Assembly: GCA_958295735.1 (NCBI GenBank) | Contig: OY282369.1 | Coordinates: 418,161-482,160 of the forward strand | Source of the DNA: an uncultured Candidatus Cenarchaeum sp. | GTDB lineage: Archaea > Thermoproteota > Nitrososphaeria > Nitrososphaerales > Nitrosopumilaceae | Length of the DNA stretch: 64,000 nucleotides | Direction of reading: 5' to 3' | In this document: piece by piece, positions 17,735-57,540 of the stretch | Position numbering within the stretch: position 1 is the first letter of the stretch | How the letters are laid out: each line of letters opens with the position of its first letter | Notes under the pieces: generated by a model | What the model was told of the DNA's origin: nothing | Databases searched by the model: none | What the model saw: the letters and a program-made list of their open reading frames with translations, nothing else | Position numbers and translations under genes: made by a program

Positions 17735-17826
17735 GTGCAGACTTGCGCCCAAACCGAAACCACGCCTAGCAGCAACAATCCGCTCCGCGATCCCACGCCC
17801 GGATCGCAACGGACGTAAGCCTACGC
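17735..17826. repeat. Inverted-repeat element, copy A (~92 bp)
   Basis: About 86% identical to copy B at 57400-57491 and recognisably related to copy C at 58622-58708. The ends are inverted repeats (GTGCAGACTTGCGCCC against GGACGTAAGCCTACGC), decayed relative to copy B. It lies in the divergent intergenic region between the giant gene and the chlorite-dismutase-family gene. It contains no credible coding sequence; a MITE-like non-autonomous element or structured RNA motif is possible. Confidence 0.75.
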
Positions 17827-55309: not shown

Positions 55310-55558
55310 CTAGTAGTCGACGGGGTAGCGCGGGGGCGCCGTGTCCTTCAGCCACTGGGGGATCTCTGCGGCCAGCTTTTGGCACTCATCCAGCTCTTTC
55401 TGCAGCCAGCCCTTCTCGAACTTCACCATGGGAGGCGCCGACCAGTATTCGTCGTCGCCGGGGTGATCGGGCCGGGCCTTCTTGAACTTCTCCAAGGAAG
55501 GAGCCGACCAGTATTCGTCGTCGCCGGGGTGATCGGGCTTGGGCGTCTCGAACTCCAT
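55310..55558 (-). CDS. Small acidic protein with internal tandem duplication, 82 aa
   Basis: Soluble protein whose first 45 residues are two copies of PDHPGDDEYWSAPxxxKFxK. They are followed by a helical end (GWLQKELDECQKLAAEIPQWLKD). The DNA copies are 66 bp apart and close to identical. I do not recognise the family. A TATA-like TATAAA at 55582-55587 lies 27 bp upstream of the ATG at 55558, which argues against the longer frame starting at 55603, since that frame would translate the box itself. Confidence 0.72.
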   Translation of the reverse strand: MEFETPKPDHPGDDEYWSAPSLEKFKKARPDHPGDDEYWSAPPMVKFEKGWLQKELDECQKLAAEIPQWLKDTAPPRYPVDY

Positions 55559-55631
55559 GGCCGGCATTGGCAGGACTTTGGTATAAACCCTCCCGTTCGG
55601 CATCGGCGAAGGTCGGCCACCCCCTCAGCTT

Positions 55632-55677
55632 GGCGCGAACCCGGATCGGCGGAAGCATTCCCGCGCCCGCGGCTAGC
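55632..55677 (+). repeat. Dispersed palindromic repeat, type 1
   Basis: GGCGCGAACCCGGATCGGCG, GAAGCATTCC, then CGCGCCCGCGGCTAGC. Very close to the copy at 62441-62487. It overlaps the 3' end of the dCTP deaminase gene, so the last codons of that gene may derive from the repeat. Confidence 0.7.
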
Positions 55678-57160
55678 AGGAGCGCGAACTCGAGCCGGCA
55701 GCGTTCGCCGAATGACCGCCTCGGGCCAAGTCTTCGGCCAGGCGGTCCGCGACCACGATCTCACTCATCAGGGACTTCCTGTAGCCGGGCAACCTCGGGA
55801 CGGCCTCGGCGGCAACCCAGCGCATCCGCCTGCCGGACGCGTCCTTGCGCCTGCCCATGGCGAAGAAGTCGACGTAGTGCAGGGGCGAGATGCCGATGTA
55901 CGGGTCAAAGTGGACCCTGCCCGCCTGCCGGTCGCCGACGCTTATCGAGTCGTCGAACAGCTTCTCTGCGTGGCTCTTCGGGTACGGCTCGATGAAGACG
56001 ACCCGCCGTATGCCGGCGATCACGATGTGCTTCGCGCAGGCATGGCAGGGGAACGTGGTGCAGTACATGGTGCAGCCCCTCACTGACGCGCCGCGCCTGG
56101 CGGCGCCTGCCAGGGCGCCCGCCTCGGCGTGCGCCTCCCTGCCGTACTCGGTCACGTCCATGAGTTTCATGCCGGAGAGGTGGGGCGATCGCATGGCCAT
56201 GCCCGCGAGCTCCTTCCCGTCCATGCCCGCGTATTCTTCCTTGTGCCAGCCCGCCCGCCCGAGCCTCGACAGCAGGTCCGCGAGCATTTCCTCCCTCTCC
56301 CACTGGTTCGAGTCGTGCCCCCGGACAAACTCGCGCTGGTCTTTCTCGTCACCCTCCGCGTAGACCCCGCCCCCGGCCTTGGGCACCTCGTTGACGCCGG
56401 TGGAGACCGGATCCCCCCACTCGTCAATTATGACCGCCCCCGTCTGCCTCGACATGGACGACGACGAGAGAGAACTGGAATACGCGTGGAACATGCCAGA
56501 CTCTTCCGCGGTCGGGGTAAGGAACGGGTTGCCGAAGAGCCTCCCCGTGTGGCGGTCAAGATGGACCTGCGCGTCTGCGAGATCCGACGCGGCGATGAAG
56601 CAGTTTGCCATCGGGAACGTGTCCCTGACGGACTGCCCGGTCACGCCCCCTTCGTGGTAGTCCCTGTGTGCGAGAGTCTCTGCGCGAACCCCCAGCATGT
56701 CCTTCAGCGCCTTGAACCTCATGGATCTTGGCGCGTATACTGAGATGAGCTGGAACTGCCTGTCGAACATGTCGCGCATAATCCTGACTTCGTCGGGGTG
56801 CTTGATCGCCCCCACGATGTACGCGCAGCCGGCGGCCGGCTTTTTTTCGGATCCCGTGATGCCTTTGCGCAGTTTTAGCATCTGGGTCACCGCCAGGGCG
56901 GCGCCGGCGCCCGTCCCCGCCCTCCGCCTCAGCTCGTTGGCCCTGTCCATTCCGGACTCGATCCTGCCGTACTCGGTGTCGTCCCTTGCCGGAGTTTCCA
57001 GGCTAGAAATCTCGGACAGCGCGTCGTCTAGCGCGATATTCAGCGGGACGTACTTGACGGTGCCCAGAGATCTGGAGAGCATGCGGCGCGCGGCGCCCAG
57101 ATCCGTCCCCAGCAACCCGGTCACGCCGAAGACCAGCTCCGGCCGGTACTCGCCGTTCAT
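55673..57160 (-). CDS. AvcD-type anti-phage dCTP/dCMP deaminase
   Basis: 495-residue two-domain protein matching anti-phage deoxycytidylate deaminases, which deplete dCTP on phage infection in bacteria. The N-terminal P-loop-kinase-like domain (1-~225) shows LVFGVTGLLGTDLGAARRML, IVGAIKHPDEVRIMRDMF and ISVYAPRSMR; the family's usual opening is G-x-x-G-x-x-G-TDL rather than a classical GKS/T loop. The C-terminal deaminase domain has SRQTGAVI, GVNEVPKAGGGVY, the zinc ligand His344-Ala-Glu346 (catalytic Glu), and TTFPCHACAKH with Cys372 and Cys375, then VVFIEPYPKS. A TATA-like GTTATATC (57185-57192) lies 29 bp before ATG 57160. Codon use is visibly less GC-rich than flanking genes, suggesting acquisition. 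Confidence 0.88.
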   Translation of the reverse strand: MNGEYRPELVFGVTGLLGTDLGAARRMLSRSLGTVKYVPLNIALDDALSEISSLETPARDDTEYGRIESGMDRANELRRRAGTGAGAALAVTQMLKLRKGITGSEKKPAAGCAYIVGAIKHPDEVRIMRDMFDRQFQLISVYAPRSMRFKALKDMLGVRAETLAHRDYHEGGVTGQSVRDTFPMANCFIAASDLADAQVHLDRHTGRLFGNPFLTPTAEESGMFHAYSSSLSSSSMSRQTGAVIIDEWGDPVSTGVNEVPKAGGGVYAEGDEKDQREFVRGHDSNQWEREEMLADLLSRLGRAGWHKEEYAGMDGKELAGMAMRSPHLSGMKLMDVTEYGREAHAEAGALAGAARRGASVRGCTMYCTTFPCHACAKHIVIAGIRRVVFIEPYPKSHAEKLFDDSISVGDRQAGRVHFDPYIGISPLHYVDFFAMGRRKDASGRRMRWVAAEAVPRLPGYRKSLMSEIVVADRLAEDLARGGHSANAAGSSSRSC

Positions 57161-57540
57161 GGTACCAGCATGTTGCGCGAGTGTGTTATATCTGTTTGTT
57201 TTTGGGTAGTCCATCCCATAACTCGAGTTTTAGGCGCGAAAAACTGCCCCGCCGCGGCCGCCGTAGGCGTGATTGTGAGATAGACTATTTTTGGGTCAAG
57301 CACGAGGTCTCGGCGGCCCCCGGCCCGCGGGCGCGAGCCCCGACCGACGGGGGCGCTTTCACGCCCGCGGCCGGCGCGCGCGCGGCCCCGCGCGCCGGCG
57401 TGTAGACTTACGTCCAAACCGAAACCACGCCTAGCGGCAACAAACCGCCCCCCAATCCCACGCCCAGATCACAATGGACGTGAGTCTACACGCGACGGCG
57501 GCCCGCAAATTCTTTTATCCGCCCCGGCGTGGGCCGTGCC
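57161..57540. other. Divergent intergenic region upstream of the deaminase and purM
   Basis: It holds the deaminase promoter, an AT-richer part (57180-57300) with TTTTTGGGT tracts, inverted-repeat element copy B (57400-57491) and the purM TATA box (TTTTAT at 57513-57518). Bacterial avcD genes are preceded by a regulatory RNA (AvcI). I cannot demonstrate an RNA gene here, but the non-coding AT-rich part is where it would sit. Confidence 0.5.
57400..57491. repeat. Inverted-repeat element, copy B (best preserved)
   Basis: The ends GTGTAGACTTACGTCC and GGACGTGAGTCTACAC are inverted repeats with one mismatch in 16. The interior includes CAAACCGAAACCACGCCTAG, shared with copy A. No coding potential. 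Two relatives lie in the window (17735-17826, 58622-58708). Confidence 0.8.

Follow-up and report, generated by a model that had tools for sequence, protein, structure and literature searches.

AvcD-type deaminases of an ammonia-oxidising archaeon are encoded with a small protein that may stand in for an RNA antitoxin

How an archaeon might hold an AvcD-type deaminase in check is the question raised by one gene in a 64,000-nucleotide stretch of Candidatus Cenarchaeum DNA (the window). The AvcID system has so far been described as a deaminase restrained by an RNA. In Vibrio, this RNA, AvcI, is encoded upstream of avcD and inhibits AvcD (PMC9455884, PMC10511110), and both the biochemistry of AvcD and its inhibition by AvcI have been characterised (PMC10511110). 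A first-pass annotation of the window had proposed an AvcD-type enzyme, consistent with transfer, and had pointed to 57161-57400 as the place to look for a comparable RNA. The gene and its parts are as follows.

55673..57160, minus strand: AvcD-like two-domain deaminase gene, 495 aa (open reading frame, profile and structure evidence)
56531..57139, minus strand: N-terminal P-loop-kinase-like domain, residues ~8-210 (alignment with bacterial AvcDs, AlphaFold2, Foldseek)
56036..56131, minus strand: deaminase zinc/catalytic site, H344-A-E346 ... P371-C372-H-A-C375
57185..57191, minus strand: TATA-like ATATAAC, 31 nt ahead of the deaminase start codon

The open reading frame is real and its start correctly placed, as the ATG at 57160 matches the start of every paralogue and follows ATATAAC at a distance of 31 nt. 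The anatomy read from the sequence also held. H344, E346, C372 and C375 are all present, completing the HAE and PCxxC set, and the glycine motif of the N-domain reads GVTGLLGTDL, in which the classical Walker A lysine is missing, as it is in the aligned bacterial AvcDs. The NCBI model for anti-phage dCTP deaminases, NF041025, aligned with residues 8-437 (E=1e-111, 374 bits), a score short of its 400-bit equivalog cut-off; three other paralogues scored 365-371 bits. The PADLOC dCTPase profile matched over near full length (E=7e-121). An AlphaFold2 model built from a 43-sequence alignment reached a mean pLDDT of 90.4. Because a Foldseek search of the PDB with this model returned both deaminases (the chlorovirus dCMP/dCTP deaminase 7fh4, E 4e-8, as well as dCMP/dCTP deaminases 2w4l and 1vq2) and a Sulfolobus adenylate-kinase-related protein (3h0k/3lw7, E about 1e-5, TMt 0.74-0.75), the layout of a kinase-like N-domain and a zinc deaminase domain in one chain stands. 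Base composition is below that of the neighbours, as had been remarked, by a modest difference (GC 65.7%; GC3 0.869 against 0.902-0.965 in ten neighbours).

The protein is almost certainly an AvcD-type two-domain deaminase, while falling outside strict NCBI equivalog membership. Its full-length relatives were AvcD-family proteins in every case, and in a tree confined to AvcDs the archaeal members were monophyletic and nested among bacterial and viral AvcDs, the closest being L103, L251, L193, L197, L210 and L202. It is unlikely to be a housekeeping dCMP deaminase, the host having a separate single-domain gene of that type (L042). Because AvcD was found in just four of the archaeal genomes searched (G000, G010, G492 and G272, among 101 relatives and 398 genomes of the phylum), a horizontal origin is plausible; G001, from the same genus, lacks it. 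To this extent the suggestion of transfer survives. A single recent import does not, since the archaeal family is old and has expanded twelve-fold. The single-copy AvcDs of G010 (L041) and G492 (L094) contain internal stops or frameshifts, whereas the small partner ORF behind each of them is intact.

The expansion is seen in the host genome, which is closed, spans 3.17 Mb and encodes an archaeal AmoA, marking an ammonia-oxidising archaeon. It carries 12 near-full-length AvcD paralogues plus fragments; the eleven others are 46-79% identical to the window copy, and one of the twelve, L037, is broken after residue ~64. By comparison, 33 of 35 other AvcD genomes gave exactly one match and the remaining two an extra partial one. 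Among six young paralogues, 6 of 54 family-conserved columns varied, against 171 of 399 others (p=2e-6). Since the paralogues vary least where the family is conserved, the copies appear to be maintained by selection. Nei-Gojobori dN/dS values were high, at 0.41-1.05 among the paralogues and a median of 0.89 for the small partner gene described below. Strong GC3 bias probably inflates these values, which could also reflect relaxed or diversifying evolution. Closely similar genes for a long coiled-coil repeat protein, possibly a mobile gene, stand beside two AvcD loci (L038:7187-9064 and L039:11608-13371).

Comparing the twelve loci brought out a second gene; neither it nor the eleven further paralogues had appeared in the first-pass annotation. 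In the window, this gene consists of the following.

55310..55558, minus strand: small partner gene encoding an 82-aa protein (KGW; core MVKFEKGWLQKELDECQKLAAEIPQWLKD), homologous to small genes at the other copies
55582..55586, minus strand: TTATA, a TATA-like box 28 nt ahead of the partner's ATG, spacing as in 8 paralogous loci
55435-55558: N-terminally extended part of the window KGW, made up of two almost identical PDHPGDDEYWSAP units in tandem

KGW genes, whose products share the core K-G-[WDES]-L ... P-x-W, accompany all 12 deaminases and lie directly downstream in nine. At L029, L038 and L039 they sit 2-4 kb downstream. The interval at L029 holds an unrelated 396-aa ORF, which judging by its sequence we take for an inserted transposase, and the partner genes of that locus contain a DDYWAAPPM segment related to the duplicated N-terminal unit of the window KGW. 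At the window and eight close loci, a TATA-like box precedes the KGW start at exactly 28 nt; in most paralogues the deaminase start has its own box at about 29-31 nt, a spacing that predicts a leaderless mRNA. Except in recent segmental duplicates, similarity between loci runs from about -45 of the deaminase to near the KGW end, and the flanks diverge immediately. The copied unit is thus promoter-deaminase-promoter-KGW. Several loci have become tandem arrays in which KGW and its promoter are repeated, with up to five good copies in L033, and in which duplicated deaminase 3' ends decay while KGW genes persist. In total, the host genome has 36 KGW matches, each near a deaminase or a deaminase remnant.

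The association extends to other archaea. Among 151 genomes of the family, KGW was found in two, G000 and G010, both of which bear AvcD, and small ORFs of the KGW/WP.WK kind occur in all four archaeal AvcD genomes. Searches of Pfam, NCBIfam, PADLOC, PHROGs and the PDB gave no convincing match to the small proteins; matches to the villin headpiece were weak and under the cut-off, and that identity was rejected. One of the small proteins, searched against plasmids, had no match. In the literature searched, which took in few subscription journals, we met no account of a small protein beside AvcD. We regard the genetic link between the deaminase and the small protein as well supported and very probably real.

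A similar gene accompanies many bacterial AvcDs. We sampled 142 avcD loci from bacteria and viruses for which the flanking sequence was long enough, a set without the AvcDs already characterised from Vibrio and ETEC. At about a third of these loci, an ORF of 30-80 aa with the motif V..WP.WK is found at the deaminase stop. The strict form of the motif occurred at 42 of the 142 loci and at 2 of 7781 random positions used as a control. The offset seen most often relative to the avcD stop was -4, often a 4-nt overlap with the stop codon. Across 29 pair-bearing genomes, the small-protein profile mostly gave one strong match, beside avcD; second matches in G528 and G548 lay behind second, partial AvcDs. 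When run by itself against 294 genomes from a single bacterial phylum, the profile matched seven times, in six cases directly adjoining an avcD, so that genome-wide the small ORF is nearly avcD-specific. The seventh (L260:1414-1605) is a WP.WK protein lacking an AvcD, in a genome where another copy is linked to AvcD; by eye, its neighbours look like HEPN/DUF262-type genes. Synonymous changes occur in the codons for Pro, Lys and Val of the motif, so constraint acts at the protein level.

Comparing the bacterial profile with KGW aligned 27 ungapped columns (probability 86%, E 5e-6), and KGW is probably the archaeal relative of the V..WP.WK protein, a homology resting on about those 27 columns. 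Several of the bacterial and viral AvcDs nearest the archaeal clade carry divergent versions of the small ORF. In Methylocucumis oryzae (L127:2538-4112), the two are naturally fused, with the WP.WK domain at the AvcD C-terminus and the separate partner ORF absent; the fused domain is predicted with moderate confidence to form a helix, a WPNW turn and a second helix. Many other AvcD clades in the sample lack the small ORF, and no WP.WK ORF lies downstream of the AvcD of an E. coli small plasmid (L262). In another clade (L228, L242, L245, L247), a different small ORF, starting Q-L-(E/S)-(L/F)-(E/N)-F, follows the deaminase and is possibly another partner type.

How might such a pair work? The explanation we prefer, and rate slightly above an even chance, is that an AvcD-type dCTP/dCMP deaminase and an inhibitory KGW protein form an antiviral two-gene module present in twelve copies. 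Given its homology and intact active site, the enzyme would deaminate dCTP or dCMP and starve replicating viral DNA of dC nucleotides. KGW, small and helical, would bind the deaminase and keep it inactive in uninfected cells; a virus that stops host expression or degrades labile KGW would release it. This is the logic of AvcID with a protein substituted for the RNA antitoxin, and we infer the antiviral role from the family. The excess of partners over toxin genes (36 versus 12) fits an antitoxin or immunity role. Together with the AvcID analogy, this surplus leads us to favour, with moderate confidence, KGW acting as inhibitor and not as activator. The natural fusion lends indirect support to direct binding of the deaminase and the small protein and counts against a labile antitoxin, for which fusion is unusual. 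Also weighing against the module are the distant partners at three loci, the many AvcD clades devoid of the small ORF, the high dN/dS, the sub-cut-off equivalog score and the shortness of the KGW-WP.WK alignment.

KGW could conversely be a positive subunit that the enzyme requires for activity, serving in assembly or in sensing the virus, and the pair would still act as a nucleotide-depleting antiviral module. The overlapping stop and start codons in bacteria and the fusion suit a permanent subunit as well as they suit an antitoxin, and we consider this reading unlikely but the strongest of the rivals. A protective antitoxin explains more easily why KGW genes outnumber deaminases threefold and persist beside decayed copies. 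Less probable still is that the cassettes are mainly selfish addiction modules, spreading in a genome rich in repeats and contributing little or nothing against viruses. Their sharp borders, scattered positions, arrays and decaying fragments, and the many other repeats of the genome, would all be expected of such elements. Against this, we saw no transposase gene common to the cassettes, family-conserved columns have been kept, and addiction and defence can coexist.

That an AvcI-like RNA controls the archaeal deaminase, with the small ORF a bystander, has the precedent of Vibrio in its favour, and we judge it very unlikely. Outside recent segmental duplicates, the upstream sequences of the twelve paralogues have nothing in common beyond about -45; the TATA spacing is of the leaderless type, and the small ORF is conserved at the protein level. 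An Rfam search of the archaeal locus gave no match. This result carries little weight next to the shared-sequence comparison, which decides the matter; we know of no Rfam model for AvcI. The RNA sought at 57161-57400 thus found no support, and the adjoining palindromic element offers none. This element (window 57400-57491, about 92 bp long, its 17-bp ends inverted, GTGTAGACTTACGTCCA) was considered as a candidate RNA upstream of the window gene and the L029 copy, and rejected as a repeat, its core pattern matching 117 times genome-wide. Many matches form pairs at a distance of about 74 bp, and some at about 2.3 kb, and a diverged copy lies at window 17735-17826, which suggests a MITE with longer relatives.

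Bacterial AvcDs that have the small protein likewise showed no upstream similarity among 158 pairs at 55-65% AvcD identity, a weak negative. Upstream conservation in a bacterial clade without the small ORF was rejected as an AvcI because it reads as the 3' end of an hsdS-like gene. At L134, L136, L139, L142, L147 and L157, avcD lies directly downstream of an apparent type I restriction specificity (hsdS-like) gene, as judged by visual inspection of the sequence. In the archaeon, the antitoxin's counterpart is more likely to be the small protein gene beside the deaminase than an RNA, and its product probably takes over the control of the deaminase that falls to an RNA in bacteria. A role of the deaminases in ordinary pyrimidine metabolism, suggested by the likeness of their deaminase domain to dCMP deaminases, can be practically dismissed, given that the genome has a separate dCMP-deaminase-type gene, that relatives manage with that gene alone and that housekeeping needs no twelve two-domain copies with partners.

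Put more broadly, AvcDs of bacteria and archaea may also exist in a two-protein form, so far unrecognised, in which V..WP.WK/KGW replaces the AvcI RNA, one archaeon having twelve diverging copies with surplus-partner arrays, perhaps a defence repertoire with separate partner specificities; we give this wider proposal an even chance. The AvcD deaminase itself is known from bacteria, and the KGW/V..WP.WK small protein was previously unnamed. If a conserved small protein does control a large AvcD branch, views on how this nucleotide-depletion defence is regulated need revision, and programs that search for defence systems should seek a two-gene system, whose small protein annotation pipelines overlook. 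Antiviral defence in ammonia-oxidising archaea is little known, and with twelve copies in one genome, function, specificity and redundancy can be tested directly.

Set beside known systems, the archaeal protein shares with the AvcD of AvcID (NF041025, PADLOC dCTPase) the two-domain layout, all zinc and catalytic residues and a full-length profile match; it differs in its score (374 < 400 bits), its twelve copies, the small protein gene downstream and the lack of a conserved upstream RNA. AvcID has been assigned to the type III toxin-antitoxin systems, which have an RNA antitoxin (PMC10511110). The archaeal locus resembles these in that an enzyme of toxin-like character is genetically linked to its presumed regulator, but the linked element is a protein gene and no conserved RNA was found among the paralogue upstream sequences. 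Type II toxin-antitoxin systems are similar in having a small gene beside a toxin-like enzyme and partner genes in surplus, whereas KGW lies downstream behind its own promoter-like box and has no recognised DNA-binding domain, and its inhibitory role is putative. The chlorovirus dCMP/dCTP deaminase (7fh4) and the T4 and human dCMP deaminases have the same deaminase fold and zinc motif but, unlike the archaeal protein, do not have the kinase-like N-domain.
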